DNA from: Cryobacterium cryoconiti
GTDB lineage: Bacteria; Actinomycetota; Actinomycetes; Actinomycetales; Microbacteriaceae
Direction of reading: 5' to 3'
Assembly: GCF_004403065.1 (NCBI RefSeq)
Contig: NZ_SOHA01000002.1
Coordinates: forward strand, 1-64,000
Length of the DNA stretch: 64,000 nucleotides
The notes beneath the pieces were generated by a model, which saw only the letters and a program-made list of their open reading frames with translations, searched no databases and had not been told where the DNA came from. This document shows positions 40,124-55,399 of the stretch, one piece after another; position 1 is the stretch's first letter; each line of letters begins with the position of its first letter. A program made the translations under genes and the position numbers.

Positions 40124-41214
40124 TTCGAACCTCCGGATGTCGGATTCTGCAGATACGGACGCATCCGTCGTTCGGAGACCTGACGTTCGGCCAGCAGCCA
40201 GCGCTGGAAGAGGGTGAAGGCCACGATGATCACGAACAGGATGAACGCGATCGCGGCACCCTGGCCCCAGGCCTGGTTGGTGAAGGCCGCCTGATAGGAG
40301 AGGTAGGCCGGCGTGAGTGTTGTCTTGCCCGGACCGCCCTGGGTGCCGGTGTAGATCTGGTCGAAGACCTGCCAGGCGCCGATCAGGCCGAGGGTGAGCA
40401 CGGTGAAGAGGGTCGGCCGCAGCTGGGGGAGGGTGACCCGCCAGAACCGCTGCCAGCCGTTGGCGCCGTCCATCATGGCTGCCTCGACGACGTCGCCGCT
40501 GAGGTTCTGCAGCGCGGCGATGAACAGCAGCATGAACGTGCCGCTGGTGGTGAACACGGCCATCAGGATGAAGGCGCTCATGGCGACGGATGGCCCGGCG
40601 AGCCACTCCCAGAAGGAGATTCCGAGGAACGTGTTGCCGGTCAGGGCGGCCGGCCCGGTCTCGACGCCGAACAGGCCGAGGAAGTTGTGCAGCACACCGC
40701 TGGGGTCATTGAACCAGTTCGGTCCGTTGATGCCGATGAACGCGAGCAGTTTGTTGACCGCTCCGCTGGCGCTGAACAGGAACAGCCAGAGCACCGTGAT
40801 GGCGACCGAGCTGGTCACCGACGGGAAGTAGAACGCGGTGCGGAAGAAGCCGCGGCCGCGCAGGATCTGCCGGTTGACCAGCACGGCCAGCAGCAGCGAC
40901 AGCATGGTCTGGGTCGGCACGACCAGGAGGACGTACCAGGCGTTGTTGCGCAGCGCCGTTCCGAAGTCCTGTTCGGCCAGGCCGCCGCCGCCGACCAGGG
41001 CGGAGTAGTTGTCGAGGCCCACAAACGACACGGTGCCGCCGAAGGGGCTGCCGCGGCCGTTCCAGTCGGAGAAGCTGACCCAGAGGGCCATCAGCACCGG
41101 AATGACCAGGAACATGCCGAGCAGGATGATCATCGGGGCGGTGAAGAGCCACCCCGAGGCGGCCTCGCCGCTCCGGAGGCCGGAGCGGCGAGCTGTGCGT
41201 GCGGGCGTCGACAT
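40120..41214 (-). CDS. Sugar ABC transporter permease (MalF type)
   Basis: 364 residues, carbohydrate-uptake permease of the UgpA/MalF class. The N-terminal segment SGWLFTAPMIILLGMFLVIP is typical, and the EAA loop reads VVEAAMMDGANGWQRFWRVTLP (by position, about 245-266). It starts 6 bases after the binding-protein stop and overlaps the MalG-type permease by 4 bases. Confidence 0.93.
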   Translation of the reverse strand: MSTPARTARRSGLRSGEAASGWLFTAPMIILLGMFLVIPVLMALWVSFSDWNGRGSPFGGTVSFVGLDNYSALVGGGGLAEQDFGTALRNNAWYVLLVVPTQTMLSLLLAVLVNRQILRGRGFFRTAFYFPSVTSSVAITVLWLFLFSASGAVNKLLAFIGINGPNWFNDPSGVLHNFLGLFGVETGPAALTGNTFLGISFWEWLAGPSVAMSAFILMAVFTTSGTFMLLFIAALQNLSGDVVEAAMMDGANGWQRFWRVTLPQLRPTLFTVLTLGLIGAWQVFDQIYTGTQGGPGKTTLTPAYLSYQAAFTNQAWGQGAAIAFILFVIIVAFTLFQRWLLAERQVSERRMRPYLQNPTSGGSK

Positions 41215-41220
41215 GGTGGA

Positions 41221-42477
41221 CTACTTCAGCAGTGCTTCGAGGTTCTTCTGCACGGAGTCGAGGATCGCCTGGGCGTCCCCGGTCTTGAGCGACTCGAGCT
41301 GCGCGTTCAGGTCGCTCACGACATCCGCGGCGCCCTTCACGTTGGGCACGCCCTGGGCGTAGTCAGCGCCGTCGAGGAAGGCGACGAGGGTGGGGTTGGC
41401 GGTCTTCCACTCGTCGGCGGCGGACTCGATCGAGGGCATCGGACCGAACTCCTCGGAGAAGGTGAGCTGGGCGTCCTTGCTGGTGAGCTGTTCCACCAGC
41501 TCGAGGGCGGCAGCCTGGTTGGGGCTGTCGGCGGCGATGCCCCAGCAGTTGGTGAACTGCAGGGTGCCCTTGCCCTCCGGGCCCGCGGGGAGCTCGGCGA
41601 CCGTGTAGTTGACCGCGGGGAAGTCGCTCTTCATCGCGCCCGTGATCCAGTTGCCTTCGATGGTCATGGCCGAGAGCTGCTTGCCGAACGCCTCGCCGCC
41701 CCAGCCGGCGCCGATTTCGCTGGCGTAGCTCATCACCCCGTCGTTCAGGAGGGTCTGCGCGTATTCGAGGCCCGCGACGCTCTCCGCGCTGTTCGCGGTG
41801 ACCTCGGTGCTGTCCTCGTTCATCAGGCTGCCGCCGGCCTGCGCCATGAAAGCGCCGAGGCGGGCGTACTCGCCCCCGAGGGAGAGTCCGACCTGGGTGT
41901 CGGTGGTGAGGGTCTTGCTCACGGCGGCAAGCTCATCCCAGGTGGTGGGGATGTCGGCGTCGGTGAGCCCGGCCTGGGCCCAGAGGTCGGTGTTGATGAC
42001 CAGGCCCAGGGTCGAGAAGTCCTTCGGTGCGCAGTAGAACTTGTCCTCGTAGGTGAAGGAGTTGACCAGGCTCGGGTAGAAGTCGTCCTTGTTGGCGAGC
42101 TGGTCGCCGTAGGCCAGGAGCGAGCCGTTCGAGGCGTAGCCGGCGAGGGCATCCGTCGAGAGGTAGAAGACGTCGGCGGGCTTCTGGGCGGCGAAGCCCT
42201 GGGCGAGCTGCTGGTTGAGGTCGCTGGCGACGCTGACCTTGGCGTCGGTGCCGGATTTCTCGGACCAGGCGGCGACCGCGGCGTTGACGGATGCGGTCTC
42301 GGCGTCTCCGCTGGAGCCGATCAGCACGTTGAGTCCCTGGGAGGAGTCGCTGGTGAGCTCTCCGCCCGCATCGGCGGTGTCGCCGAAGCCGGATCCGGAA
42401 CCGCAGGCGCTGAGAGTGAGGGCGCCGGCGACGGCGAGCCCGGTTCCGATCAACCAGCGAGAGTTGCGTCGTTGCAT
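41221..42477 (-). CDS. Sugar ABC transporter substrate-binding lipoprotein
   Basis: 418-residue lipoprotein of solute-binding family 1 (lipobox LSAC in AGALTLSACGSG). Family features include KPADVFYLSTDALAGYASNG and the hinge-side block AMTIEGNWITGAM. ATG 42477 follows AAGGAG. It is the first gene of the operon and lies under two LacI-type operators. The neighbouring debranching-type glycosidase argues for an alpha-glucan oligosaccharide as ligand (inference). Confidence 0.92.
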   Translation of the reverse strand: MQRRNSRWLIGTGLAVAGALTLSACGSGSGFGDTADAGGELTSDSSQGLNVLIGSSGDAETASVNAAVAAWSEKSGTDAKVSVASDLNQQLAQGFAAQKPADVFYLSTDALAGYASNGSLLAYGDQLANKDDFYPSLVNSFTYEDKFYCAPKDFSTLGLVINTDLWAQAGLTDADIPTTWDELAAVSKTLTTDTQVGLSLGGEYARLGAFMAQAGGSLMNEDSTEVTANSAESVAGLEYAQTLLNDGVMSYASEIGAGWGGEAFGKQLSAMTIEGNWITGAMKSDFPAVNYTVAELPAGPEGKGTLQFTNCWGIAADSPNQAAALELVEQLTSKDAQLTFSEEFGPMPSIESAADEWKTANPTLVAFLDGADYAQGVPNVKGAADVVSDLNAQLESLKTGDAQAILDSVQKNLEALLK

Positions 42478-42544
42478 CTTGTTTCTCCTTGTGTCGCGCA
42501 TCGATGCGCGTTTGCTTGTGTAGAGGTCACGATAGCTGACTTTA

Positions 42545-42558
42545 TTTGATCGATCAAA
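42545..42558. promoter_or_regulatory. LacI-type operator O1
   Basis: TTTGATCGATCAAA is a perfect 14-bp palindrome, 67 bases upstream of the binding-protein start. Its repeats at O2 and O3 make a regulator site likely, with the adjacent LacI protein the obvious candidate. Confidence 0.82.
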
Positions 42559-42565
42559 CTTTTCT

Positions 42566-42579
42566 TTTGATCGATACAA
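42566..42579. promoter_or_regulatory. LacI-type operator O2
   Basis: TTTGATCGATACAA differs from O1 at two positions in one half-site; centres are 21 bases apart, two helical turns, which would let two dimers bind on the same face. Confidence 0.75.
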
Positions 42580-42644
42580 TCCGCGTCTTTCCGGGGAACA
42601 GGTCCGCGGGGTGGCCGAGCGGAGAATTGCCTGACCGGCGGGGC

Positions 42645-42712
42645 GATCGCAGGGGGCGCGCGGACGGGCGCTCGGACGGGCGGTCGGGCGGGCGCCCCCG
42701 TTCCCTGCGATC
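42645..42712. repeat. GC-rich imperfect hairpin with degenerate decamer repeats
   Basis: GATCGCAGG (42645-42653) pairs with CCTGCGATC (42704-42712), and GGGGGCGC (42652-42659) with GCGCCCCC (42692-42699). The loop holds degenerate copies of a CGGGCGGTCGG-like decamer. It lies between the divergent operators O2 and O3 and may insulate the two promoters. Confidence 0.6.
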
Positions 42713-42744
42713 CGGCGGCACGCGGTAGCCTGTGCAGAACGGTA

Positions 42745-42758
42745 TTTGATCGTTCAAT
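42745..42758. promoter_or_regulatory. LacI-type operator O3 (autoregulatory)
   Basis: TTTGATCGTTCAAT lies 49 bases upstream of the LacI-family gene, on the opposite side of the intergenic region from O1 and O2. It suggests the regulator controls its own gene. Confidence 0.72.
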
Positions 42759-42807
42759 TCAGGCGCGGTCGTGCGCGGTCATCGGCAGGCTTGGGGCAGG
42801 AGCAGGT

Positions 42808-43854
42808 ATGAGCGGGCTTCCCACGGTGACGGATGTCGCCCTTGCGGCCGGCGTCTCCCGCCAGACCGTCTCGAATGTGATGAATTCGCCCGGCATCGTG
42901 CGCGCTGACACCCGCGAGCGGGTCGAGGCCGCCATCAAGGAGCTCGGGTATCGGCCCCACGCCTCCGCCCGGCGCCTCCGCACGCGGCGCAGCTCGACCA
43001 TCGGCATCCGTCTGGACCCGATGATCGACGGCATCTCCGGGTCGGTGCTCGACCGGTTCCTGCACGCCCTGACCGAACAGGCCGACGCGCAGGGGCTGCG
43101 CGTGCTGTTGTTCACGGCGACGAGCCCCGACGACGAGATCACCCAGTTCCAGCGTCTGAACGACGGCGCGGACGTCGACGGCTTCGTGCTCACCTCGACG
43201 TTCGCCGGCGACCCGCGCACCCAGTGGCTGATCGCGAACGGCATCTCCTTCGTCACCTTCGGACGCCCGTGGGGTGACGACGATCTGAACGACCCGCAGC
43301 ACCTGTGGGTGGATGTGGACGGCTGGGCCGGCCTGCACGAAGCCACCCGGGCGCAACAGGACGCCGGTGCCCGGCGGATCGCCTACATCGGCTGGCCCAG
43401 CCCGTCGGGCACCGGCGACGAACGCCGCCGGGGCTGGTACGACGCGATGATGGAACGCGGCGACGTCTCGGCCGAGGAACTCGCCCGGCTCGAGATCGTC
43501 ACCACCGACGGTGTCAGCCAGGGCACCGCCGCGATGACGGAGCTGCGGCAGAACGCCGGCCGGCTCGACGCCGTGCTCTGCGCGAGTGACTCGCTCGCCC
43601 TCGGCGCGATGATCGCCAACCCGGGACGCGTGCCGGTCACCGGGTACGACAACACGCCGGTTGCCGCCGCGGTCGGTCTCTCCAGCGTCGACCAGGCCGT
43701 CGACGAGGTCGCCGCCGGAGTGCTCGACCTCCTCACGGGAGAATTCGGCGGACGCGTGCACGGCGCCCCGGAATCGGACGAGCCGCGGCACCGGCTGATC
43801 ACGCCCCGGCTGGTCGTGCGCGAGTTCGCCGCCATTCCGATGGACGTGCCGTAG
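42808..43854 (+). CDS. LacI-family transcriptional regulator of the alpha-glucan locus
   Basis: 348 residues. The N-terminal helix-turn-helix is TVTDVALAAGVSRQTVSNVM and the hinge helix is YRPHASARRLRTRRS. A periplasmic-binding-like effector domain follows (RIAYIGWPSP, DAVLCASDSLALGAM, VPVTGYDNTPVAAAV). ATG 42808 follows AGGAG. It is divergent from the importer and flanked by TTTGATCG operators, so it is the likely repressor, released by an imported sugar. Confidence 0.92.
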   Translation: MSGLPTVTDVALAAGVSRQTVSNVMNSPGIVRADTRERVEAAIKELGYRPHASARRLRTRRSSTIGIRLDPMIDGISGSVLDRFLHALTEQADAQGLRVLLFTATSPDDEITQFQRLNDGADVDGFVLTSTFAGDPRTQWLIANGISFVTFGRPWGDDDLNDPQHLWVDVDGWAGLHEATRAQQDAGARRIAYIGWPSPSGTGDERRRGWYDAMMERGDVSAEELARLEIVTTDGVSQGTAAMTELRQNAGRLDAVLCASDSLALGAMIANPGRVPVTGYDNTPVAAAVGLSSVDQAVDEVAAGVLDLLTGEFGGRVHGAPESDEPRHRLITPRLVVREFAAIPMDVP

Positions 43855-43873
43855 TAGCCGCTAGCATGACGCC

Positions 43874-44728
43874 ATGACTCTCCCCGAGGTTGTCGGTCTC
43901 CCTGTTTCCCCCGGTGTGCCCGTGTCTGCCGGCCTCCCGGCCGCCCTGCCCGACGCGTGGAACCTCACCGGCCGCACCGCCCTGGTCACCGGGGCCGGCA
44001 GCGCCTCCGGGATCGGATTCGCCGCGGCCCGGATGCTGGGGGAGCTCGGTGCGCTGGTCGTGCTCACCGCCACGACCGAACGCGTGCACGAGCGCGCGGC
44101 CGAGCTGGCGGAACGGGGCATCGGGGCATCCGGTTTCGTCTGCACCCTTGACACCGAGGCCGGGGCGCGGCTGCTGGCCGACGCCCTGCTCGAGGCCGGC
44201 CTGGCACCCACGATCCTGGTCAACAACGCGGGCATGGTCGCGGTCGGCGACGCGGAGATGCTGCACGGCGACGTGAGCACCACGTCGCCGGAGGAATGGG
44301 ACCGCGGCCTCGCGATCAACCTGTCGACGGCGTTCCATGCCACGCGCACCGTGATCGGCTACATGCATGAGGCGAACTGGGGACGCATCATCACGGTGTC
44401 CAGCGTGTCGGGGCCGGTGATGGCCTCCCGCGGGGACCTGACCTACGCGGCGGCGAAGGCCGGCCTGGCCGGGCTGACCCGGGCGCTCGCCGTGGACGAG
44501 GCCTGGCTCGGCGTGACCGCGAACGCGGTCGCGCCGGGCTGGATCGAGACCGGGTCCCAGCTGGAGAGCGAAGCGGTCGAGGGCGCGCTCGTTCCGGTGG
44601 GACGCAGCGGCACGGCGGCGGAGGTTGCATCCGTGATCGCCTGGCTCGCGTCGCCCGGCGCGTCGTACGTCACCGGCCAGACCATCGTCGTCGACGGCGG
44701 CAACAGCGTGGCCGAGGAACGCCGCTAG
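43874..44728 (+). CDS. Short-chain dehydrogenase/reductase (FabG-like)
   Basis: Classical SDR of 284 residues. The cofactor motif TGAGSASGIG, the NNAG block (LVNNAGMVAV), the catalytic Ser in VSSVSGPV and the YxxxK pair (YAAAKAGLAGLTRAL) are all present. The C-terminal YVTGQTIVVDGG is typical of 3-oxoacyl-ACP reductase relatives. The N-terminal 25 residues (Pro/Val-rich) are additional. It follows the LacI gene by 19 bases and may be co-transcribed. Substrate unknown. Confidence 0.9.
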   Translation: MTLPEVVGLPVSPGVPVSAGLPAALPDAWNLTGRTALVTGAGSASGIGFAAARMLGELGALVVLTATTERVHERAAELAERGIGASGFVCTLDTEAGARLLADALLEAGLAPTILVNNAGMVAVGDAEMLHGDVSTTSPEEWDRGLAINLSTAFHATRTVIGYMHEANWGRIITVSSVSGPVMASRGDLTYAAAKAGLAGLTRALAVDEAWLGVTANAVAPGWIETGSQLESEAVEGALVPVGRSGTAAEVASVIAWLASPGASYVTGQTIVVDGGNSVAEERR

Positions 44729-44760
44729 GCCGGTTGCCGGTGCGGCTTGCGGTTCGATTC

Positions 44761-44844
44761 GCCTGCGTCTGCGCCTGAGTCCTGGTCCGAGTCCGAGTCT
44801 GGGTCTGGGTCTGGGTCTGGGTCTGGGTCTCGGTCCGAGTCCGG
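44761..44844 (+). repeat. Hexanucleotide tandem array, 14 degenerate units
   Basis: Fourteen 6-bp units follow each other in register. Five central units are exactly GTCTGG (44797-44826), and the outer ones are variants such as GTCCGA. It lies in a 319-base intergenic region. Slippage could change its length. Confidence 0.88.
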
Positions 44845-44864
44845 GCAGTGGTCCTCCGCAATGG

Positions 44865-44958
44865 TGCATAACTCCTGCAATTCGTCGCCCGGGCAGGAAA
44901 CAGGCCCGGAATCACGCGGAAGTCCGGCGACGCCGGTGCAAATTGCAGGAGTTATGCA
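44865..44958. repeat. Palindromic element, family C, copy 2 (94 bp)
   Basis: Arms TGCATAACTCCTGCAATT (44865-44882) and its exact complement (44941-44958) are 18 bp. Inside, CGTCGCC (44883-44889) pairs with GGCGACG (44926-44932). The interior is the reverse complement of copy 3 over a stretch including CCGCGTGATTCCGGGCCTGT, so the two copies are inserted in opposite orientation. Confidence 0.93.
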
Positions 44959-45047
44959 CACGACCGGCGGTTGACCCGGCCGGAGACCGGCGGTTGAGCC
45001 GGGGCTGCGGAGTCGGTGCGGTTGAGCGGGTGCAGTTGAATAGACCG

Positions 45048-46700
45048 GTGACTTCTGCACTGATCGCCCGGCTTCGCTCCGACCTCGCCACCGCCAACTT
45101 CTCGGTTTCGGCCCTCACGGGCCTGTGGGGGATCGACGCCGATGCCGCGCTGCGCCGCAATCAGCGGGTCCCGGCGCTGCGTGCGCTGGACGGCCTCCGG
45201 GAGACGCTCGGGCACACCGAGCCCTGCGCCACATTGGCCCGCCTGTTCGTGCTCGGCCTGCCCGTCGACCGTGCGGAGCTCGAGGCCGCCCTGCCCGCAC
45301 TGGGTGCCGCCGGGGCCGAAGAGCTGGGGCTCGCGGCATCCGTCGCTGCCGACCGGGGCGCCGACGCAGACACCGGTGCCACCGTTCGCCCGCTGCTCGA
45401 ACTGCGGCCCTACAGCTTCGTCGACGCGCAGGGTGCCGGCAGCTGGTGGATCCTGTCCGACCTGGGTGAGCTCGCGCTCGGCCACCCGCTCGGCGAGAGC
45501 CATGTGCTGGGCGTGGGCGGGGCATCCCTGACGCTCAGCGGGCTGCTGATCCCCACCCCGGTGGCCAGCGCCCTCGACCTGGGCACCGGCTGCGGCATCC
45601 AGGCGATGCACGCGTCCCGGCACGCGGACCGGGTGGTGGCCACCGACATCTCGGTGCGCGCGCTCGAGCTCGCCGCTCTGAACGCGGCCCTGAACGAGAT
45701 CGGCAACATCGAGTTCCGCCTCGGCAGCCTGTTCGAACCCGTCGCGGGGGAGCGCTTCGACCACATCATCTCCAACCCGCCGTTCGTGATCACCCCGCGG
45801 GTTCCGGGGGTGCCTGCTTACGAATACCGCGACGGCGGCCTGGTCGGCGACGCCCTAGTGGAGGCCGTGGTGCGCGGCGCGGCCGAGCACCTCACCCCGG
45901 GCGGCGTCGCCCAGCTGCTCGGCAACTGGGAGTATCACGCCGGCCAGGACGCCTTCGAGCGACTGGCCGGCTGGCTCGATGCCCCTGACGAATTCGACGG
46001 AGATTCTGCCCGAAACACCCCGAATTCGACACCTGCGGCCCCTCCGGGAGCAAAATCTCCGTCGAATTCGCACGTGGCGCTCGACGCCTGGATCATCGAA
46101 CGCGAGGTGCAGGCACCCACGCTCTACGCCGAGACGTGGATCCGCGACGGCGGCACCCGCGCCGACACCGCCGACTTCGACCGTCTCTACGGTGCCTGGC
46201 TGGACGACTTCGAGGCCCGCGGCGTGAGCCAGGTCGGCTTCGGCTACATGCTGCTGCGCCGAACGGTCGCCGGCCCGCCCTCTCTCCGCCGCCTCGAACG
46301 ACTTCCCGGCGGCCTCGGCCACAACCCCGGAGGAATGGGCAGCCACCTCGCCGCCTGCCTCTCCGCCCATGATTGGCACGCGGCAACGGATGACGCCCGC
46401 CTCGCCCGTGCGCGGCTCACCGTCGCAGCCGATGTCACCGAGGAGCGGCACTACTGGCCCGGCCAGGAGGACCCCACCCTGATGACCCTGCACCAGGGCA
46501 GTGGCTTCGGCCGGTCGGTCCCGCTGGACACCGGCCTCGCCGCACTCGTCGGAGCCTGCGACGGTGACCTCGACGTGGGCTCGATCGTGGCCGCGCTGGC
46601 CGAGCTGCTCGACGTCGACGAACGCGAACTCGCCGCGGACCTGTTTCCGCGGGTGCGTGAGCTGCTGGACGACGGCTTCCTGCAGCATCCGCTCGCCTGA
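45048..46700 (+). CDS. Large SAM-dependent methyltransferase
   Basis: 550 residues from GTG 45048 (TTG 45036 and GTG 45030 are alternatives; no strong ribosome site marks any). An N-terminal helical domain of about 150 residues precedes a class I methyltransferase core: ASALDLGTGCGIQAMHASRH (SAM loop) and IISNPPFVITPRVPG. The NPPF motif is the one used by N5-glutamine and adenine/guanine-N methylases such as PrmC and RlmG. The core is interrupted at about residues 314-341 by a stretch (EFDGDSARNTPNSTPAAPP...) encoded by a palindrome, described separately. A further C-terminal domain ends in a helical region. The substrate is unknown; rRNA, tRNA or protein modification is plausible. Confidence 0.85.
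   Translation: MTSALIARLRSDLATANFSVSALTGLWGIDADAALRRNQRVPALRALDGLRETLGHTEPCATLARLFVLGLPVDRAELEAALPALGAAGAEELGLAASVAADRGADADTGATVRPLLELRPYSFVDAQGAGSWWILSDLGELALGHPLGESHVLGVGGASLTLSGLLIPTPVASALDLGTGCGIQAMHASRHADRVVATDISVRALELAALNAALNEIGNIEFRLGSLFEPVAGERFDHIISNPPFVITPRVPGVPAYEYRDGGLVGDALVEAVVRGAAEHLTPGGVAQLLGNWEYHAGQDAFERLAGWLDAPDEFDGDSARNTPNSTPAAPPGAKSPSNSHVALDAWIIEREVQAPTLYAETWIRDGGTRADTADFDRLYGAWLDDFEARGVSQVGFGYMLLRRTVAGPPSLRRLERLPGGLGHNPGGMGSHLAACLSAHDWHAATDDARLARARLTVAADVTEERHYWPGQEDPTLMTLHQGSGFGRSVPLDTGLAALVGACDGDLDVGSIVAALAELLDVDERELAADLFPRVRELLDDGFLQHPLA
45989..46070. repeat. Palindromic element inside the methyltransferase reading frame
   Basis: Arms CGAATTCGACGGAGATT (45989-46005) and its exact complement (46054-46070) are 17 bp, with a 48-nt interior that contains a further CGAATTCGAC at 46021-46030. 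The length (82 bp) and layout resemble family C but the arm sequence differs. Translation gives a Ser/Pro/Asn-rich loop and keeps the frame. Confidence 0.9.
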
Positions 46701-46758
46701 CCCGCGCTCGCCGGCTGCGCCGACGTCTGCTGGTGCCCGAGTCAACCTCCGTTCCCAG

Positions 46759-46850
46759 GCATAACTCCTGCAATTTCGGCGCGTGCAGCGGGTCTCCCGC
46801 GTGATTCCGGGCCTGTATTTCCCCCGCACGACGAATTGCAGGAGTTATGC
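46759..46850. repeat. Palindromic element, family C, copy 3 (92 bp)
   Basis: Arms GCATAACTCCTGCAATT (46759-46775) and its complement (46834-46850) are exact over 17 bp. The interior shares CCGCGTGATTCCGGGCCTGT with copy 2 in inverted orientation. It lies in the 332-base gap between the methyltransferase and the amine oxidase. The rest of that gap (46851-47032) shows no gene. Confidence 0.93.
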
Positions 46851-47032
46851 ACACCAGCGGGATGCACACCAGCGGGCGAAGGCTGCGAGCACACACAGGC
46901 CGACGCGACGTGCGTGCGTCCCGCCACACTCGCCCCGACCAGCCACTTCGCCGACCTCTGCGGTAGTTTGGTCATACTGCCCGGCCCGCTCGGAAAGGAG
47001 AGCGTCAGCGCCACACGTGACGCGGACACACT

Positions 47033-48505
47033 ATGAAACGTCGAACCTTTCTGCTCGGCTCGGTCTCCGGCCTGTCCCTGGTCGCGCTCACCGCGTGCGT
47101 GTCGCCGACTCCCCGGCCCTCGGCCTCCGTCACGCCCAAACCGACTTCGGCACCCTCGCTCGTGCCGAAGCCCGCGGCCATGCGTCGCACGTCGTGGTCG
47201 GCCGATCCGTTCGCGCGCGGTTCGTTCAGCTTTCCCGCCGTGGGCGCGACGCCCGAGCAGCGGGATGCCCTCAGCCAGCCGGTCGACGACCGGCTGTTCT
47301 TCGCCGGTGAGGCGACCTCCACCGATGCGTTCGGCACCGTGCAGGGTGCCCGCGACTCCGGTCAGCGCGCCGCCCGCGACGTGATCGCGGCCGCCGACGT
47401 GGGGGAGCGCATCGCCGTGATCGGCGCCGGAATGGCCGGGCTCGCCGCTGCCCGCGACCTGCAGGACGCCGGCTTCGATGTGTTCGTGGTGGAGGCCCGT
47501 AACCGCATCGGCGGCCGGATCGACACCGTCACCGACACGGACTGGCCGTTCCCGATCGAGCTCGGCGCGGCCGTCGTGCGGCGCACCGGGGACACCACCC
47601 TCGATGAGGACCTCACCGACCGCGGCGTCGCCACCGCCCCGTTCTCCGGAGTACCCGAGGCACGCACCGCGGCCGGCGCGGTCGTGGAGGTGCCGGACAC
47701 CGGCGCGCAGGCGGTCGCCACCGCCCTGGCCTGGGCCGCCGAGCAGCCTGCCGATGTGTCCATCGCCCAGGCGCTGGCCGATTCCGGGGCCTCCAAGCTC
47801 TCGACGACGGATGCCGACATCGGCGTTTCCGACGCCGACTGGCTTGATTACCAGATCACGGTGGTGCTCGATCCGAAGACCGGCGCTCCCGTCGCGGAGC
47901 AGTCGTCCTGGTATTCGGCTGCCGATACCGCCGCGAAAAACGGCGCCGACGACGACGGCGCCGACGACGGCGCCGGCGAGGACCGCATCGTGCTCGGCGG
48001 CTACGCCACCCTGCTCGAGGACCTGAGTGACGGCATCGACGTGCTCGGCTCGAGCGTGGTCACCCGGATCGCCTACAGCGACTCCGGCACCAGCCTGCGG
48101 CTCGGCAACGGCGAGTCGCTCTCCGCCGACCGGGTCATCGTCACGGTGCCGCTCGGCGTGCTGAAGACCAAGGTGATGGAGTTCGACCCGCCGCTGCCCT
48201 TCGCACATCGCGGTGCCATCGCGGCGCTGGGCATGGGCACGCTCGACAAGATCTGGCTGCAGTTCGAGGAACCGTTCTGGGACACGGATGCCCCGCTCTG
48301 GTCCACGGTCGGCGTCGTCGACGATTTCCGCGTCTGGATCAACATGGTTCCGCTCACCGGCGAACCGGTCCTGGTCGGTCTCGTCACTGCGGAAGCGGCT
48401 CTGCGCCTCGCGGAGGTCGATGACGACGAGTTCCTGGCGGCCGCACTGACCAGCCTCGAACCGTTCTACGCCGGAGTGCCGACCTCCACCCCGACCCCGG
48501 AGTAG
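47033..48505 (+). CDS. Circularly permuted flavin amine oxidase, Tat-exported lipoprotein
   Basis: 490 residues. The N-terminus MKRRTFLLGSVSGLSLVALT has a twin-arginine RRTFL motif and an LTAC lipobox (Cys22), so the protein is probably exported folded and lipid-anchored. A Ser/Pro/Thr linker follows. Residues 55-118 (WSADPFARGSFSFPAVGA, RLFFAGEAT, GTVQGARDSGQRAA) are the block that normally ends LSD1/polyamine-oxidase-like enzymes and binds FAD. The Rossmann entry IAVIGAGMAGLAAARDLQDA (127-146) and VVEARNRIGGR come after it. The protein then runs through the substrate domain and stops at AALTSLEPFYAGVP, just where the relocated block would normally follow. All elements of the fold are present once but in shifted order. 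Substrate amine unknown. Confidence 0.9.
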   Translation: MKRRTFLLGSVSGLSLVALTACVSPTPRPSASVTPKPTSAPSLVPKPAAMRRTSWSADPFARGSFSFPAVGATPEQRDALSQPVDDRLFFAGEATSTDAFGTVQGARDSGQRAARDVIAAADVGERIAVIGAGMAGLAAARDLQDAGFDVFVVEARNRIGGRIDTVTDTDWPFPIELGAAVVRRTGDTTLDEDLTDRGVATAPFSGVPEARTAAGAVVEVPDTGAQAVATALAWAAEQPADVSIAQALADSGASKLSTTDADIGVSDADWLDYQITVVLDPKTGAPVAEQSSWYSAADTAAKNGADDDGADDGAGEDRIVLGGYATLLEDLSDGIDVLGSSVVTRIAYSDSGTSLRLGNGESLSADRVIVTVPLGVLKTKVMEFDPPLPFAHRGAIAALGMGTLDKIWLQFEEPFWDTDAPLWSTVGVVDDFRVWINMVPLTGEPVLVGLVTAEAALRLAEVDDDEFLAAALTSLEPFYAGVPTSTPTPE

Positions 48506-48847
48506 GCGCGAACCACCCGTCATCAAAACACCTGACCAGCGCCTCGCCGAAGTCAACCCTTGGCAATCTCGAGATTCGTCGTGTATGCTCCTGCCAACGT
48601 CCAGTCGGTGAAATTTGGCCCCCCTTCGGGGTGCGTTTTCATGCAGGCGCAGCCCGTCGTGGTGCAGCGCCCAGAGGTCCAGTCGTTACCCTGACTGGCT
48701 GTGCCGACGGATTCCTGAGGGGTGAGTACCCCCGGTCCAGGCCGGGCTCAGCCGCCGGCCGTCCCAGCGTGGTTGCCACTGGGATGCACCACCTCCACCC
48801 GCGACTGTTCCACCTCTCTGCTTGACCGTGTGATTGCTGTGCTCCCC
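48506..48847 (+). other. 342-base region with possible leader or small RNA
   Basis: After the amine oxidase stop the region holds the TTGGCA/TATGCT promoter and a short hairpin CCCC-TTC-GGGG (48621-48631) followed by GCGTTTT (48633-48639). About 200 bases of GC-rich sequence without a credible open frame follow, up to the Cys-rich small gene. It could be a long 5' leader of that gene or a small RNA ending near 48640. I do not recognise a known RNA family. Confidence 0.4.
48560..48589 (+). promoter_or_regulatory. Sigma-70-like promoter with no obvious gene behind it
   Basis: TTGGCA (48560-48565) and TATGCT (48584-48589) are separated by 18 bases, a good vegetative promoter. The first credible start codon is about 260 bases downstream. 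Confidence 0.6.
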
Positions 48848-49117
48848 ATGGATACCCTCCTCGACATTGACCTCGAATCCGTCGTTCTTCTCGACTTCGA
48901 CCCTGACCTGCCGTGCGAAGGCACCCACCACATCCGTGGGCTGAGCGGGCACCTGCCCACCGCCCCGGGCTCCTATATGGTCATCTCGCCCTGCTGCGGC
49001 CCGAAGGTGGTGCAGTGCACGCCCCGGGTGCTCGCGATGCAGGCATCCGGTGTGCTTTATTGCGGAGCCTGTCAGGGTGAGCATCTGACCAGCGAATACT
49101 CGTTCATTCCGCTGTAG
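48848..49117 (+). CDS. Cys-rich small protein, possible zinc-binding
   Basis: 89 residues from ATG 48848 (MDTLLDIDLESVVLLDFDPD). Five cysteines are grouped as SPCCGPKVVQC and YCGACQGEH in the C-terminal half, like a zinc-ribbon or knuckle pair. No hydrophobic segment. The start has no clear ribosome site; in-frame GTG codons at 48830 and 48839 are alternatives. The last 14 bases overlap the convergent membrane-protein gene. Family not recognised. Confidence 0.7.
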   Translation: MDTLLDIDLESVVLLDFDPDLPCEGTHHIRGLSGHLPTAPGSYMVISPCCGPKVVQCTPRVLAMQASGVLYCGACQGEHLTSEYSFIPL

Positions 49118-49892
49118 ACCCGCGCCGCCACATCCACTGGGGCAGCCGCGACGTGGCCGTGAGAACGGCTGCGATAGCGGTGAAGAGCGTCAACGCGACC
49201 AGGCAGTAGACCGCCGTTTCGAGCGGCCCACTGACCTGCACCGGGTCGAGGAAGAAGTATGGGTACCAGCCCACGATCGACCCGCGGATGAGCGTGAATA
49301 CTCCCCAGATACTGGGCACCACGAGTCCCCAGGCCAGGATTTTCCAGGGCAGGCGGGCCTTGCCGGCATCCGTCAGCCAGTCCAGGAGGGCGATCGCCGG
49401 AATCCAGAAGTGCAGCAGCTGGCTCGACCAGGGCACCTCGATCGTGTAATCCCGGTTTGAGGACTGGATGACGATGGTCAGGAACACGATCCCCGAGACG
49501 GTGATGTAGGTCGTGACCAGCAGCCGGAACCAGTCCAGCCACGGTGGGTCGACCGTGTGCCGGAACGCGACGATCGCACCGGCGACGAACGCGACGACCG
49601 CCGCCATGCCGCTTTGCACCGTGAAGTAACTGTAGAAGTTGTAGATCTGGAACGTGGCGAAGCCGAGCACGTAGTCGAAGTAGCCGAGGAGGGCCGCCAC
49701 GCCCAGCCCGGCAAGCAGGAGCCGACCCACGCCGAATGCCTGGCGCACGCGGCGCACGGGGAACGGGCGCGGCCCCCGGGTCAGTGCCGGGCGGGTGCCT
49801 GCCGCCGGCAGTGCGCGCATGACCGGGTTCGCCGCCGCCGGGACGCGTTCCGTGGGTTTCGTCCGAGCGGGATCGGCAGCTCGCGCGCACAT
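49104..49892 (-). CDS. Pr6Pr family membrane protein
   Basis: 262 residues with six hydrophobic segments. The pattern around FYSYFTVQSGMAAVVAFVAG and the histidine in QLLHFWIPAIALLDWL match the Pr6Pr family, related to FAR-17a/AIG1-like proteins. The basic N-terminal 50 residues precede the first helix, so the start may be internal (Met at VMRALPAAG). Function unknown. Confidence 0.83.
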   Translation of the reverse strand: MCARAADPARTKPTERVPAAANPVMRALPAAGTRPALTRGPRPFPVRRVRQAFGVGRLLLAGLGVAALLGYFDYVLGFATFQIYNFYSYFTVQSGMAAVVAFVAGAIVAFRHTVDPPWLDWFRLLVTTYITVSGIVFLTIVIQSSNRDYTIEVPWSSQLLHFWIPAIALLDWLTDAGKARLPWKILAWGLVVPSIWGVFTLIRGSIVGWYPYFFLDPVQVSGPLETAVYCLVALTLFTAIAAVLTATSRLPQWMWRRGSTAE

Positions 49893-49926
49893 GCTTCCAC
49901 GCTACCTCTGCAGGTCGGGTTCCCGC

Positions 49927-50196
49927 TCAGTAGCCGATCCGGAACCCGGTCTCGTCGAGCGGGGCAATCGTGCTGACCTCGACGGCCTCGACGTGGGCCG
50001 ACGGCGGTCCGTGCTGCAGCCACGCGAGCATCGCCCAGACGGATGCCGCGTTCCCCTCCACCTCGACCTCCACCGTGCCGTCCGCGCGGTTGCGCACGAA
50101 TCCCGCGAGGCCGAGGCGACGGGCCTCGGCCTGGGCGTAGTAGCGGAACCCCACCCCTTGCACGACCCCGCGCACGACGGCCTGTTTGCGAACCAT
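49927..50196 (-). CDS. acyP: Acylphosphatase
   Basis: 89 residues, normal length. VRGVVQGVGFRYYAQAEARR carries the phosphate-binding loop and catalytic Arg; GFVRNRADGTVEVEVEG carries the catalytic Asn. It hydrolyses carboxyl-phosphate bonds of acylphosphates in the cytoplasm. ATG 50196 (MVRKQAV) is taken as start, since the longer frame upstream has no homologous look. Confidence 0.93.
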   Translation of the reverse strand: MVRKQAVVRGVVQGVGFRYYAQAEARRLGLAGFVRNRADGTVEVEVEGNAASVWAMLAWLQHGPPSAHVEAVEVSTIAPLDETGFRIGY

Positions 50197-50258
50197 GCTC
50201 CCAGTCTGCCCCGCGCCCGGCCTGCTCGCACCCCGCGCGGAGTGGCTTGCCCGCCCGT

Positions 50259-51281
50259 TCAGGCGGAGTCGCGCCAGACGATCGGGGTCTCCAGCAGGAT
50301 GCCGCCGGGCGGCTGCTCCTCGCCGCGCAACTGGCCGAGCACGCACTCGGCCGCCGCCGCACCGAGGCCGAAGGCAGGCTGGTGCACGGTGGACAGGTGC
50401 GGCTGGGTGCGCAGCGCCCAGGTGCTGTCGTCGAAGCCGACGATGCCGACGTCACTGGGCACGCTGCGCCCGGCGTCGCGGAGGGCCTCGAGGGCTCCGG
50501 CCGCGACGGCGTCGGACGCCGCGAACACGCCGTCGATCAGCGGGTCGCGTTCGAGCAGTTCGCGCATGCCCTGAGCCCCGTCGGCGAAGGTGTACAGCGG
50601 CACACGGGCGACGAGGGCCGGGTCGAAGCGGTCGCCGAGGGCATCCGTGAAACCGGCCAGGCGGTCGGCGCCGGAGTCGCGGTCGAGGGCCGCGGCGACC
50701 ATGCCGATGCGCGTGCGGCCGGTCTGCATCAGGCGTTCGGTGATGGCGCGCGCCGACGCCCGGTTGTCGATGCCCACGAAGGGGAGCGCCTGCAGGTCGG
50801 GCGGATGTCCCACGAAAGCGGCCGGGAGGCGCAGCTTCTCGATCACCCGGGTGATGGGATCTTCGTGGCGGGCGGAAACGATGACGACACCGTCGACGAA
50901 ACCGCCGCTGAGGTAGCGGGCGACACGGTCGGTGTCGCGCTGGGAATCAATGACGAGGCTGACCATCTGGTAGTCGGCGCGGGAGAGCACGGTGTTGGCG
51001 CCGAGCAGGATGCCGCCGATGTTGGGGTCGTCCAGAAAGAGGGAATGGGGCTCGTGCACGATGAAGCCCACGGCCTCCGAGCGCTGCATGACCAGGCTGC
51101 GGGCGGCGTTGTTGGGCACGTAGCCGACCTTTTCGATGGCGGCCTCGATGGCGATGCGGGCCGACGCCGAGACGTAGGGTTCGTCGTTCACGACCCGGCT
51201 GACCGTGCCGCGGGAGACGCCGGCCTCCACGGCGACGTCGTGGATCGTCGCGCGTCTGCGTCGAGCCGGAATCATCACCAT
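50259..51281 (-). CDS. LacI-family regulator of the galactoside locus
   Basis: 340 residues from ATG 51281 (51275 is a second candidate). The HTH is ATIHDVAVEAGVSRGTVSRV, the hinge helix YVPNNAARSLVMQRS, and the effector domain carries FVGHPPDLQ, GVFAASDAVAAGALE and VGIVGFDDSTWA. It is divergent from the beta-galactosidase, with two 16-24-bp inverted repeats between them, so repression of the galactoside operon with release by a galactoside is the best reading. Confidence 0.93.
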   Translation of the reverse strand: MVMIPARRRRATIHDVAVEAGVSRGTVSRVVNDEPYVSASARIAIEAAIEKVGYVPNNAARSLVMQRSEAVGFIVHEPHSLFLDDPNIGGILLGANTVLSRADYQMVSLVIDSQRDTDRVARYLSGGFVDGVVIVSARHEDPITRVIEKLRLPAAFVGHPPDLQALPFVGIDNRASARAITERLMQTGRTRIGMVAAALDRDSGADRLAGFTDALGDRFDPALVARVPLYTFADGAQGMRELLERDPLIDGVFAASDAVAAGALEALRDAGRSVPSDVGIVGFDDSTWALRTQPHLSTVHQPAFGLGAAAAECVLGQLRGEEQPPGGILLETPIVWRDSA

Positions 51282-51316
51282 TCGATAACTGTAACGCTCC
51301 CACGGGGCAGACGTGC

Positions 51317-51346
51317 TTGACACGGGAGCCGTGGCGTCCGTACTCT
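51317..51346 (+). promoter_or_regulatory. Promoter of the galactoside operon
   Basis: TTGACA (51317-51322) is followed after 18 bases by TACTCT (51341-51346). Operator 1 overlaps the -10 box, which fits repressor control. Confidence 0.72.
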
Positions 51347-51360
51347 GTGTACGTTCACAG
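51345..51360. promoter_or_regulatory. LacI-type operator 1 of the galactoside operon
   Basis: CTGTGTACGTTCACAG is an inverted repeat overlapping the -10 box. It shares the GTTCACAG half-site with operator 2. Confidence 0.78.
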
Positions 51361-51386
51361 AAAACCCGATGGTGAGTTTTGCTCTC

Positions 51387-51410
51387 GACTCTGTGCACGT
51401 TCACAGAGTC
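51387..51410. promoter_or_regulatory. LacI-type operator 2 of the galactoside operon
   Basis: GACTCTGTG and CACAGAGTC form 9-bp perfect arms around 6 central bases (CACGTT). Centres of operators 1 and 2 are about 46 bases apart. It lies 39 bases upstream of the beta-galactosidase start. Confidence 0.82.
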
Positions 51411-51448
51411 GTCAACACCGGTGTCTGCACACCACGGTCAGGGAGCAC

Positions 51449-53485
51449 ATGAACACGCGCGCAGCCACTCACGACGGAACGGCTTCGGCCAGCCCGTTCG
51501 TTCACGAGGGCATCGCCTACGGCTGCGACTACAACCCGGAGCAGTGGGGCCCGGGCACCTGGGCCGAGGACGTGCGCCTGATGCGCGAGGCCGGCGTCGA
51601 CCTGGTGGCCATCAACATCTTCGGCTGGTCGCACATCGAACCGCGCCCCGGCGAGTACGACTTCACGACACTCGACACGGTCATCGAGCTGCTGCACGCC
51701 AATGGCATCCGGGTCAATCTCGGCACCGGCACCTCGTCTCCGCCGCCGTGGCTGACCACGCGCCACCCCGAGATCCTGCCGGTGACCGACGACGGAACCA
51801 GCCGCTTCCCGGGCGGTCGCCAGGCCTGGTGCCCGAGTTCGGCCGTGTTCCGCGAGCACGCGCTCGCCCTGGTCGAGCAGGTCGCGAAGCGGTACGGCCA
51901 CCATCCGGCCATCGCGCTGTGGCACGTGTCCAACGAGCTGGGCTGCCACAACGCGCTCTGCTACTGCGACGACACCGCCGCGGCGTTCCGCCTCTGGCTG
52001 CAGGCACGGTACGGCACGATCGAGGCCCTCAACGAAGCCTGGGGTACCTCCTTTTGGAGCCAGCGCTACGGCCAATGGGCCGAGATCCTCACCCCGCGGC
52101 TCACCCTCTCCAGCCGGAACCCCGGCCAGGTGCTCGACTTCCACCGGTTCAGCTCCGCCGAGCTGCTCGACTATTACCGTCTGGAGACCGCGGTGCTGCG
52201 CCGCCACTCGACCGTGGCCGTCACCACCAACTTCATGGTCACCGCGCACATCCGCAACCTGGACTACTGGTCCTGGGCCGGTGACATGGACATCGTCGCC
52301 AATGACCACTACCTCGACCACCGCCTCGCCGACCCCACCACCGAGCTGGCCTTCGCCGCCGACCTCACCCGCGGGCTAGCGGGCGGCGCGCCCTGGCTCC
52401 TGATGGAGCAGGCCGCCGGCGCCGTCAACTGGCAGCCGCACAACCTGGCCAAGGCGCCCGGCGAGATGACCCGCAACTCCCTCGCCCACGTCGCCCGTGG
52501 CGCCGACGGCATCTGCTTCTTCCAGTGGCGCGCCTCCCTGCAGGGCTCGGAGAAGTTCCACTCCGCCCTGGTGCCCCACGCCGGCACCGACACCGTGCTC
52601 TGGCGCGAGGTCGTGGCTCTGGGCGCGACCCTCGACCGGCTCGCCGAGGTCACCGGCAGCCGGGTCGTGGCGGATGCCGCCATCCTCTTCAGCTGGGAAT
52701 CCTGGTGGGCCGGCGACGGCGAATCCCGCCCCTCCCACGCGGTGCGTTACCTCGACCAGGTACACGCCGCCTACACGGCTCTGCACGAGGTCGGCGTCAC
52801 GGTCGACATCGTCTCCCCGGATGCCGACCTCTCGGGCTACCGCCTCGTCGTCGCCCCGGCGCTGTACCTGGTCTCGGACACGCAGGCTGACAACCTGAAC
52901 GCGTATGTCGCCGCCGGCGGCCACGCCCTGATCACCTTCTTCAGCGGCATCGTCGACGAAGACGACCGGGTGCGCACCGGCGGCTACCCCGGCGCGTTCC
53001 GCGAGACCCTCGGCATCACGGTGGAGGAATTCTCCCCGCTGCTTCCCGGGCACGTGCTCGCCCTCGACTCCGGCGCCACCGCCACCCTGTGGGCGGAACG
53101 CCTGCGCGTCGACACCGCCGAGGTGATCGCGAGCTATCTCGACGGGCCGCTGCCCGGCATCCCCGCTGTGACCCGCAACCGGCACGAGGACGGCACCGCC
53201 TGGTACGTCGCCACCGCGTTGGAGGCCGGAGCGCTGCGCGACCTCGTGCGCACCATCGCCCAGGAGGCCCGGGTCACCAGGCTCGGCCCGGAGAGCGCCG
53301 GCCGGGTCGAGGTCGTGCGCCGCGTGGGCCTTGCCCACAGCTACCTGTTCATCATCAACCACGGTCCGGATGACATCGAGCTTGCGGCCGCCGGCCATGA
53401 ACTCGTCACCGACGAACCCGTCGGTCGAATTGTGCGCGTGCCGGCGGGAGCCGTTCGCGTGATTAGAGAGGACCCCGCATCATGA
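51449..53485 (+). CDS. Beta-galactosidase, glycoside hydrolase family 42
   Basis: 678 residues, normal for GH42. YGCDYNPEQWGPGTWAEDVR opens the catalytic barrel. The acid/base Glu163 lies in ALWHVSNELGCH and the nucleophile Glu320 in APWLLMEQAAGAVNWQ. The metal-site cysteines typical of GH42 appear around ELGCHNALCYCDD. No signal peptide, so it acts inside the cell. ATG 51449 has GGGAG six bases ahead. First gene of a five-gene operon with importer and alpha-galactosidase. A 4-base ATGA overlap joins it to the first permease. Confidence 0.95.
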   Translation: MNTRAATHDGTASASPFVHEGIAYGCDYNPEQWGPGTWAEDVRLMREAGVDLVAINIFGWSHIEPRPGEYDFTTLDTVIELLHANGIRVNLGTGTSSPPPWLTTRHPEILPVTDDGTSRFPGGRQAWCPSSAVFREHALALVEQVAKRYGHHPAIALWHVSNELGCHNALCYCDDTAAAFRLWLQARYGTIEALNEAWGTSFWSQRYGQWAEILTPRLTLSSRNPGQVLDFHRFSSAELLDYYRLETAVLRRHSTVAVTTNFMVTAHIRNLDYWSWAGDMDIVANDHYLDHRLADPTTELAFAADLTRGLAGGAPWLLMEQAAGAVNWQPHNLAKAPGEMTRNSLAHVARGADGICFFQWRASLQGSEKFHSALVPHAGTDTVLWREVVALGATLDRLAEVTGSRVVADAAILFSWESWWAGDGESRPSHAVRYLDQVHAAYTALHEVGVTVDIVSPDADLSGYRLVVAPALYLVSDTQADNLNAYVAAGGHALITFFSGIVDEDDRVRTGGYPGAFRETLGITVEEFSPLLPGHVLALDSGATATLWAERLRVDTAEVIASYLDGPLPGIPAVTRNRHEDGTAWYVATALEAGALRDLVRTIAQEARVTRLGPESAGRVEVVRRVGLAHSYLFIINHGPDDIELAAAGHELVTDEPVGRIVRVPAGAVRVIREDPAS

Positions 53486-54444
53486 GCGCACCTGCCGTTC
53501 CCCTGACGGATGCCCCGGGCAGCGCTGCCCGGAAGAAGCCCCGCGCAGCGAAGCCCGCCAAGCCGGTCGGAGCGAAGCCCCGCGTACAGCACAAGGGCGC
53601 GATCCTCGCGTTCGTTCTGCCGTTCGGCACCCTGTTCGCCCTGTTCTACCTTGTGCCGATCGGCTACGCGATCTACCAGTCGCTGCTCGTGATCGAACGC
53701 GAGGGCACCTTCGGCCAGGCCACAGAGGTCTTCGGCGGGCTGACCCAGTACATCCTGGTGTTCCAGAACGGCCCGTTCTGGGAGTCGATCGGCCGGGTGC
53801 TCTCCTTCGGCGCCGTGCAGGTGCCGATCATGCTCGGTCTCGCGCTGCTGTTCGCCCTGCTGCTGGACTCGCCGCTGGTGCGCGGCAAGAAGTTCTTCCG
53901 GCTGGCCTTCTTCGTTCCCTACGCGGTTCCCGGCGTCATCGCCGCGATCATGTGGGGCTACCTCTACTCACCGAATCTGTCGCCGTTCAGCGCCGTCACC
54001 GAGAACATCAACTTCCTCTCGGCCGACCTCGTGCTCTGGGCCATCGCCAACGTCGTCACCTGGGTGTTCGTGGGCTACAACATGCTGATCATCTACTCGG
54101 CGCTGCTGGCGATCCCGGCCGAACTCTACGAGGCTGCCCGCCTCGACGGCGCCGGGCAGCTCCGCATCGCCTGGTCGGTCAAGATCCCGCTGATCATGCC
54201 GGCGATCATCCTGACCGCGATCTTCTCGATCATCGGCACCCTGCAACTGCTCGCCGAACCGCAGGTCTTCCGCAGCTTCAGCTCGGCCGTGACCAGCACG
54301 TTCACGCCGAACCTGACGGTGTACTCCACCTCGTCGATCCCGAACTTCAACCTGGCCGCCGCGTTCTCCGTGGTGCTGGCCCTGGCCACGTTCATCCTCT
54401 CCTTCACGTTCCTGAAGTTCACCCAGCGGAAGGAAGCCAAATGA
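53482..54444 (+). CDS. Sugar ABC transporter permease (MalF/LacF type)
   Basis: 320 residues. A basic Lys/Ala-rich leader (about 1-35) precedes six helices. The coupling EAA loop is LYEAARLDGAGQLRIAWSVKIP (by position, about 213-234). ATGA overlaps at both ends (with beta-galactosidase and the second permease) show tight coupling. Confidence 0.93.
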   Translation: MSAPAVPLTDAPGSAARKKPRAAKPAKPVGAKPRVQHKGAILAFVLPFGTLFALFYLVPIGYAIYQSLLVIEREGTFGQATEVFGGLTQYILVFQNGPFWESIGRVLSFGAVQVPIMLGLALLFALLLDSPLVRGKKFFRLAFFVPYAVPGVIAAIMWGYLYSPNLSPFSAVTENINFLSADLVLWAIANVVTWVFVGYNMLIIYSALLAIPAELYEAARLDGAGQLRIAWSVKIPLIMPAIILTAIFSIIGTLQLLAEPQVFRSFSSAVTSTFTPNLTVYSTSSIPNFNLAAAFSVVLALATFILSFTFLKFTQRKEAK

Positions 54445-55349
54445 GCACCCTGACCCCCGCCAAGCCGGCCCGCGGCATCCGTTCGACCGCGGAAAAGGCG
54501 CCGCGCGCCCAGCGCGAGAGCCCGTTCGCCCGGGTCAGCGCCATGATCGTGATGGGCGTCTTCACGCTCTACTTCCTGGTGCCGATCTGGTGGCTGCTGG
54601 TCGCGGCCTCCAAGAACCGGTCCCAGTTCAACAGCACCAACCCGCTGTGGTTCGCCGACTTCTCCCTGTTCGAGAACATCGGCAACCTGATCGCCTACCG
54701 CGACGGCGTCTACCTCAAATGGATGCTGAACAGCGCCCTCTACGCCGGTGGCGGCGCCCTCGTGGGCACCATCATCGCCGGCATGTGCGGCTACGCCCTG
54801 GCCAAGTACAACTTCCCTGGCCGGGAACTGATCTTCAACGTCGTGCTCGGCGGCGTGCTCGTGCCCGCGACGGCGCTCGCACTGCCGCTGTTCCTGATCT
54901 TCAGCCAGATCAGCCTCACCAACACGTTCTGGTCGGTGTTCCTGCCCAGTCTGGTCAGCCCGTTCGGGGTTTATCTCGCCCGTATCTACGCCTCGGCCAG
55001 CGTGCCCGACGAGCTGATCGAGGCTGCCCGCCTCGACGGCGCCGGCGAGCTGCGCACCTTCTTCACCGTCTCGGTACGGATGATGGTGCCCGCCCTGGTC
55101 ACCGTCTTCCTCTTCCAGTTCGTCGCCATCTGGAACAACTTCTTCCTGCCGCTGATCATGCTGCGCGACGAAACCCTGTTCCCGGTCACGCTCGGTCTCT
55201 ACGCCTGGAACTCGCAGGTCAACCAGATCCCCGTGCTGCGCGACTACGTGCTGATCGGCGCGCTCTTGTCGATCATTCCGTTGATCATCATCTTCCTGCT
55301 GCTCCAGCGCTTCTGGCGAAACGGCCTCAGCGCCGGTTCGGTGAAGTAA
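54441..55349 (+). CDS. Sugar ABC transporter permease (MalG/LacG type)
   Basis: 302 residues, six helices, with EAA loop LIEAARLDGAGELRTFFTVSV (by position, about 193-213) and the C-terminal LLQRFWRNGLSAGSVK typical of family members. ATG 54441. Followed by a run of ten C residues and more C-rich sequence before the binding-protein gene. Confidence 0.94.
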   Translation: MSTLTPAKPARGIRSTAEKAPRAQRESPFARVSAMIVMGVFTLYFLVPIWWLLVAASKNRSQFNSTNPLWFADFSLFENIGNLIAYRDGVYLKWMLNSALYAGGGALVGTIIAGMCGYALAKYNFPGRELIFNVVLGGVLVPATALALPLFLIFSQISLTNTFWSVFLPSLVSPFGVYLARIYASASVPDELIEAARLDGAGELRTFFTVSVRMMVPALVTVFLFQFVAIWNNFFLPLIMLRDETLFPVTLGLYAWNSQVNQIPVLRDYVLIGALLSIIPLIIIFLLLQRFWRNGLSAGSVK

Positions 55350-55359
55350 CCCCCCCCCC
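55350..55359 (+). repeat. Homopolymer of ten C
   Basis: Ten consecutive C residues start one base after the permease stop and are followed by further C runs up to 55381. Such tracts are prone to slippage but here lie outside coding sequence, about 40 bases ahead of the binding-protein start. Confidence 0.9.
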
Positions 55360-55399
55360 AGCTGCCCCACCCCACCCCCACCAAGAGAAAAGAAGAACA

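Follow-up and report, generated by a model that had tools for sequence, protein, structure and literature searches.

A circularly permuted flavin amine oxidase gene with a predicted Tat lipoprotein signal in Cryobacterium cryoconiti and its bacterial relatives

The stretch of DNA analyzed here (the window) comprises 64,000 nucleotides of Cryobacterium cryoconiti and carries, at positions 47033-48505 of the plus strand, one ATG-started open reading frame (ORF) of 490 amino acids plus stop. We annotate this ORF as the whole gene of a circularly permuted flavin amine oxidoreductase on the basis of its swapped PF01593 matches and of dN/dS values of 0.19-0.34 against six congeners, which indicate purifying selection on the permuted gene. 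From 5′ to 3′ on the plus strand, its parts are: (i) a putative twin-arginine (Tat) signal, R3-R4, with the lipobox L19-T20-A21-Cys22 (47033-47098), as read from the sequence; (ii) a Ser/Pro/Thr-rich linker of residues 23-45 (47099-47167), mostly of low predicted confidence (pLDDT < 50 over residues 1-38); (iii) the moved C-block of residues 46-120 (47168-47392), with the motifs W55..DP, RLFFAGEAT, and GTVQGARDSGQRAA; (iv) a new junction of residues 121-125 (47393-47407) that connects the helix of the C-block with the first Rossmann strand; (v) the Rossmann and substrate-binding body of residues 126-482 (47408-48478), supported by structural alignment with LSD1; and (vi) a new C-terminal tail of residues 483-490 (48479-48502), with pLDDT < 50 over residues 482-490. 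The first-pass annotation had described Ser/Pro/Thr linkers at both new termini; both exist, but the C-terminal one spans only about 8 residues. Short tandem repeats at 47940-47979 encode an insertion rich in Asp and Gly (about residues 303-315, with pLDDT < 50 over 302-314), which is shorter or missing in most rows of alignment A1, and a perfectly duplicated 15-mer lies 5′ of the gene at 46847-46876. An Rfam scan of the window returned a single tRNA elsewhere and nothing more, and in an NCBIfam scan of the permuted protein none of the best 25 of 107 families scored above its curated cutoff.

The swapped order of the blocks of a flavin amine oxidase (FAO), as proposed for this ORF in the first-pass annotation, was confirmed by PF01593, phmmer, and block HMM searches. 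By hmmscan, PF01593 (Amino_oxidase) matched the protein at 222.9 bits (cutoff 19.8) in two stretches. In a profile search of the strain's own genome, residues 42-118 (bases 47156-47386) corresponded to profile positions 367-443, the profile end, and residues 134-489 (bases 47432-48499) to positions 1-372, the profile start; together the two pieces span the profile and place the protein in the FAO superfamily. This gene was the sole one in the genome with a PF01593-end match detached from its Rossmann match. Along the LSD1B chain, the query segments were found to run 125-163, 313-482, and then 44-118 (phmmer), the last at a domain E-value of 1.1e-6 and with the C-block aligned to LSD1B residues 700-774. 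Block HMMs likewise located the C-block at 50-123, the Rossmann block at 129-204, and the substrate block at 317-483 of the ORF (ORF numbering being the residue number plus 4), an order of C-block, Rossmann, and substrate domain rather than the canonical linear order of Rossmann, substrate domain, and C-block. A second C-block downstream, which would have spoken for an assembly artefact, was absent from the window: a six-frame scan with the C-block HMM gave one domain at an E-value of 1e-39 and four others at domain E-values of 0.99-6. These results support the conclusion that the window gene is a circular permutation of a flavin amine oxidase.

The position of the seam was similarly consistent among the permuted proteins. 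Canonical relatives have the C-block near the chain end, with Rossmann strand 1 opening the domain, and the permuted chain is cut directly before the '..VPxP..W..DP' stretch, in the loop preceding the WxxDP motif. In canonical proteins the stretch '..VPxP..[T/S]xW..DP' comes right after the helix with which the permuted chain ends, so the chain does stop where the moved block would follow, as the first reading of the sequence had it. Between the SG of the C-block helix and GxGxxG the spacing was 22 in 74 of 86 measurable proteins (95 unique). The piece that in canonical enzymes completes the FAD domain from the C-terminal side would thus stand ahead of the Rossmann strand, with about five residues bridging the two where the old termini presumably lay close together.

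Structure prediction was performed with AlphaFold2 on an input alignment of 24 permuted sequences only. The best model had a mean pLDDT of 81.9 and a pTM of 0.81 (five models, 81.9 to 54.1), and the new junction was modeled well, at a mean pLDDT of 97 over residues 111-130. Likeness to known enzymes was found over the body: LSD2 was the top Foldseek match (E-value 3.4e-23), and residues 123-482 superposed on LSD1 2z5u by VIA-align with a Z of 25.3 and an rmsd of 2.2 over 334 residues. The MAO/LSD1/PAO-type fold is therefore recovered over the body, the C-block lying outside the alignment, as these structural alignments mainly span model residues 119-483. Within the full-chain model the C-block was predicted in ten-residue blocks at pLDDT 79-97; folded alone, it gave a poor model (pLDDT 60.2, pTM 0.49), a difference that would fit a block that becomes ordered only through packing against the body. 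One compact LSD1-like fold is thus predicted for the permuted chain.

Homologues with the same block order were found in congeners, in other Microbacteriaceae, in other Actinomycetota, and in Pseudomonadota. Among congeners, all 36 sampled genomes matched from residue 1 or 2 at 53-88% identity, including one match in two colinear pieces (G021, 1-430 and 429-480) and one with an internal stop (G003). When block HMMs built from alignment A1 were applied to a first set of loci, 104 ORFs had the order C-block, Rossmann, substrate, 5 had the same order with a doubled substrate block, and 15 had the canonical order; a second set added 24 permuted (many of them refetched genes) and 13 canonical ORFs, and a third 6 and 4, respectively, counts in which one gene may recur under several locus identifiers. 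No protein among the loci scanned had a C-block at both chain ends. Permuted members outside the genus include Microbacterium aurantiacum (L057), an Actinomycetota MAG (L058), Streptomyces abyssalis (L059), a Rhodobacteraceae MAG (L060), and a Microbacterium MAG (L061); the Lentzea protein (L062) is canonical.

Breadth was estimated with profile A1 at an E-value ≤ 1e-60 from colinear matches beginning within or ahead of the C-block; the taxon samples overlap and are not summable, the profile is biased toward the permuted order, and many canonical enzymes fall short of the threshold. On these terms, a permuted match (profile start ≤ 3) was detected in 100 of 299 Microbacteriaceae genomes, the strain's own and five congeners included, and all 30 matches that were order-checked as loci proved permuted. 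Permuted genes were found in 26 of 394 genomes of the window's class (14 from Microbacteriaceae; 24 order-checked), 17 of 248 of its order (13 from Microbacteriaceae; all order-checked), and 9 of 396 of its phylum (all order-checked). For the Rhodobacteraceae MAG, the class yielded 1 of 289 genomes, namely its own, and the phylum 3 of 249, its own among them. The permuted order is therefore sparser in Actinomycetota outside Microbacteriaceae and in Pseudomonadota. The profile range alone can mislead, since one genome (G416, locus L156) matched profile positions 45-464 yet was canonical by block order. That the order might reflect an assembly or annotation artefact, with the C-block truly belonging downstream, was considered and rejected, its likelihood being negligible: no evidence in its support was found, the window is without a second C-block, and the identical order recurs in every one of the 36 congeners sampled and in genomes of other genera that were assembled independently.

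The Tat lipoprotein signal placed ahead of the C-block by the first-pass annotation (R3-R4, LTAC, Cys22) appears sound on reading of the sequence, and its occurrence among relatives was surveyed with a crude sequence rule supplemented by reading by eye. A Tat-like signal was detected in 91 of 95 unique permuted proteins, and a Tat signal with lipobox in 78, the latter an undercount as L071, L073, L085, and L104 were scored as having no lipobox despite a visible one. Among the proteins that failed the rule, L058 and L153 appear Tat-like by eye, L098 has no evident signal, and L050 is an open frame without a Tat signal, though its homologues have one. The same annotation had suggested that permutation allowed N-terminal anchoring, to which the 78 permuted lipoprotein candidates might lend support. 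However, 14 of 28 unique canonical rows also pass the Tat rule, and 7 of these have a lipobox as well (L116, L118, L156-L159, and L165, the last a Haloarcula plasmid gene) and more by eye. Moreover, of six further permuted proteins (two from Pseudomonadota and four from the window's order), five (L170, L171, L173, L174, and L176) gave no match to the Tat rule, and the sixth (L169) matched solely far upstream of its probable start; this apparently unexported set retains, by eye, the lysine considered below in 6 of 6. N-terminal anchoring is thus neither peculiar nor tied to the permuted order, the Tat lipoprotein layout common to canonical-order relatives would not have needed permutation, and we reject anchoring as the general cause and regard selection of the permutation for that purpose as very unlikely. 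A subtler version, in which permutation moved the attachment to a different enzyme face, is possible.

The active site was compared in a reordered alignment of 95 unique permuted and 28 canonical rows, from which the six later permuted proteins were excluded. G131, G133, G136, E154, W55, R162, G92, and E93 were invariant in all 95 permuted and all 28 canonical rows, and the features expected for FAD binding (the Rossmann GxGxxG, the ribose Glu, GGR, and the GE of the C-block) were likewise present in every row of both groups. Lys406 (48248-48250, +), which we take by motif to be the equivalent of LSD1 Lys661 and MAO A Lys305, would provide the window protein with the lysine next to flavin N5 expected of an O2-using oxidase. 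A lysine occupies this position in 27 of the 28 canonical rows and in 67 of the 95 permuted ones, the latter divided as follows: Cryobacterium, 42 of 42; other Microbacteriaceae, 9 of 36; other Actinomycetota (L058 and L152-L154), 4 of 4; Streptomyces-type, 4 of 4; Rhodobacteraceae, 1 of 1; and the second Tat clade, 7 of 8. In the remaining 27 of 36 rows of other Microbacteriaceae, the residue there is instead T, V, R, L, S, Q, or A while the FAD residues stay invariant, and a 59-row tree requires no fewer than 7 changes of state at this site. The aromatic-cage Tyr of all 28 canonical rows corresponds to Phe65 in the window protein and to varied residues in other permuted rows; a sign test of lysine loss against cage-residue loss gave a median P of 0.5, with too few independent pairs.

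Our preferred reading, to which we assign a probability of about 0.75, is that the window protein is a natural FAO permutant, predicted from its sequence and model to be Tat-exported, lipidated on Cys22, and active in amine oxidation with O2. The permuted protein would fold and load FAD in the cytoplasm before export through Tat, lipidation on Cys22 would hold it on the outer face of the membrane, and an amine would there be oxidized with O2 and H2O2 released. The sequence is nearest the LSD/polyamine-oxidase branch, and the retention of Lys406 together with the lack of a cytochrome c gene nearby suggests O2 as the acceptor: no CxxCH was present in any open frame of window positions 40001-56000. 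In 32 neighborhood sources, CxxCH occurred in two called ORFs of at least 90 amino acids, one away from the gene (L143) and one of 96 amino acids just upstream (L149). According to PMC12224317, the FAO lysine is nearly universal, most dehydrogenases included, and matters for O2 reactivity, and most tested Tat FAOs without an adjacent cytochrome c gene are fast O2 oxidases. Counter to our reading are the Phe65 in place of the cage Tyr and the one exception in that set, a tested Tat FAO without cytochrome c that is not a fast oxidase.

Given the loss of the lysine in most other Microbacteriaceae, the wider clade may carry out some chemistry other than amine oxidation by O2. A second, less likely explanation is that the permuted flavoprotein has drifted from oxidase chemistry, with the non-Cryobacterium Microbacteriaceae being amine dehydrogenases or non-catalytic flavin binders and the window protein an early stage. 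A dehydrogenase of this kind might pass its electrons to a quinone or a membrane partner. The repeated replacement of Lys406 beside invariant FAD residues fits such drift, as does a conserved membrane-protein neighbor. Data on MAO A can be cited on both sides, as PMC8009472 reports (i) that kcat is lowered 200-fold by K305M and 100-fold by K305S, the K305M enzyme still being reduced by substrate yet slow with O2; and (ii) that K305Q is as active as wild type and K305R inactive, such that replacements of the lysine do not predict one outcome. Against drift also stand the lysine of the window protein and all 42 Cryobacterium rows, the oxidase activity of most tested Tat FAOs without cytochrome c (PMC12224317), and the fact that no electron acceptor was identified. 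Taken with the lysine and Tat FAO data of these two sources, the window protein is most likely an exported O2-using oxidase, as in our preferred reading, and many of its relatives possibly are not.

The membrane-protein neighbor is a Pr6Pr family gene convergent with the permuted gene (49104-49892, minus strand; NF038065, E-value 5.3e-33). Of 22 sources examined from the main clade of Microbacteriaceae (seven of them Cryobacterium, counting the window), 21 have a Pr6Pr homologue that adjoins the permuted gene or lies one small ORF off, with the convergent arrangement kept. None of 10 other sources has one, some of these being short contigs; neighbor clusters were defined by BLAST at 1e-15, at which remote homologues may be missed. 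The literature searched yielded nothing on Pr6Pr. Only the seven Cryobacterium sources showed the methyltransferase gene that lies upstream and a small ORF that lies downstream. The small Cys-rich ORF at 48722-49117 (+; CCGPK, YCGAC) is conserved next to the permuted gene in 7 sources, the window among them and every one Cryobacterium, and had no Pfam or NCBIfam match up to an E-value of 0.01.

Whether the permutation arose once or several times is neither shown nor rejected by our trees. A single origin gave AU P-values of 0.321 (46 rows) and 0.104 (55 rows). The best trees scatter the permuted rows across several groups and need 2 and 4 order changes in the two careful trees and 3 in a quick 106-row tree, and trees with one order change made up 0% of 200 bootstraps for either careful tree. 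The starred branches force at least 2 order changes in the 55-row tree, where the Rhodobacteraceae protein L060 joins the canonical L155 (support 98/89), and only 1 in the other two trees. Several origins or reversions are thus possible; with several, the clades may comprise (i) Microbacteriaceae and Streptomyces-type proteins; (ii) the second Tat clade, from other actinobacterial families; (iii) the apparently unexported proteins of Pseudomonadota and the window's order; and (iv) the Rhodobacteraceae member. More speculative, and in our view improbable, is that FAOs were permuted more than once at the same seam and that in most Microbacteriaceae the lysine was then lost, turning the enzyme into an amine dehydrogenase inert toward O2, anchored in the membrane, and working with a new partner that might be the Pr6Pr neighbor.

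When compared with characterized systems, the window protein had its best PDB matches in LSD1/LSD2 (KDM1A/KDM1B) and the polyamine oxidases (spermine oxidase, maize PAO, and FMS1), with LSD2 at an E-value of 3.2e-36. It has in common with LSD1/PAO the FAD motifs, the Lys661 equivalent, and the WxxDP, FAGE, and GTxxGAxxSG motifs; unlike LSD1B, which has the canonical linear order, it is bacterial, permuted, and equipped with a putative Tat lipoprotein signal, and it is without the SWIRM and tower domains that LSD1 carries. NicA2/Pnao, among the Tat-exported bacterial FAOs, have the canonical block order. The window protein resembles these and the PMC12224317 set in FAO family, in its Tat signal (by the crude rule and by eye), and in its predicted extracytoplasmic location, and it differs from the NicA2-type dehydrogenases in that these adjoin a cytochrome c gene and none was found near the window gene. 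Canonical Tat lipoprotein amine oxidases (L116, L118, L156-L159, and L165) have the same signal, lipobox, and three blocks in the order Rossmann, substrate, C-block, unlike the window protein.

The first-pass annotation knew of no described amine oxidase of such order, and our searches agree: (i) the literature searched, which lay mostly outside subscription journals and without bioRxiv, yielded no account of a flavin amine oxidase in permuted order; (ii) the main text of PMC12224317 has no word beginning 'permut'; and (iii) the best 60 of 103 PDB matches to the permuted-order profile all have their best stretch starting at or after profile position 119, none running from the C-block into the body. 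The permuted FAO order is thus apparently an undescribed enzyme layout. FAOs (MAO, LSD1, and the polyamine oxidases) are among the best-studied flavoenzymes. A natural permutant widespread in bacteria amounts to nature's own experiment on chain order, folding, and FAD loading, and its new termini make it of use as a scaffold; the relatives in which the near-universal lysine was repeatedly lost allow a direct test of conversion from amine oxidase to dehydrogenase. Annotation by linear profiles may split or under-score permuted genes.

Mobile elements were also surveyed. On viral contigs, 28 stretches fit a search pattern and none was a relative. Plasmids gave 13 records, all below 60% identity, and the three that were order-checked (L165-L167) were all canonical. 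One of these, on the Synechocystis plasmid pSYSM (L166, 2389-3726), is a canonical amine oxidase with an RR lipoprotein-like start that lies beside a VapC toxin-antitoxin pair.
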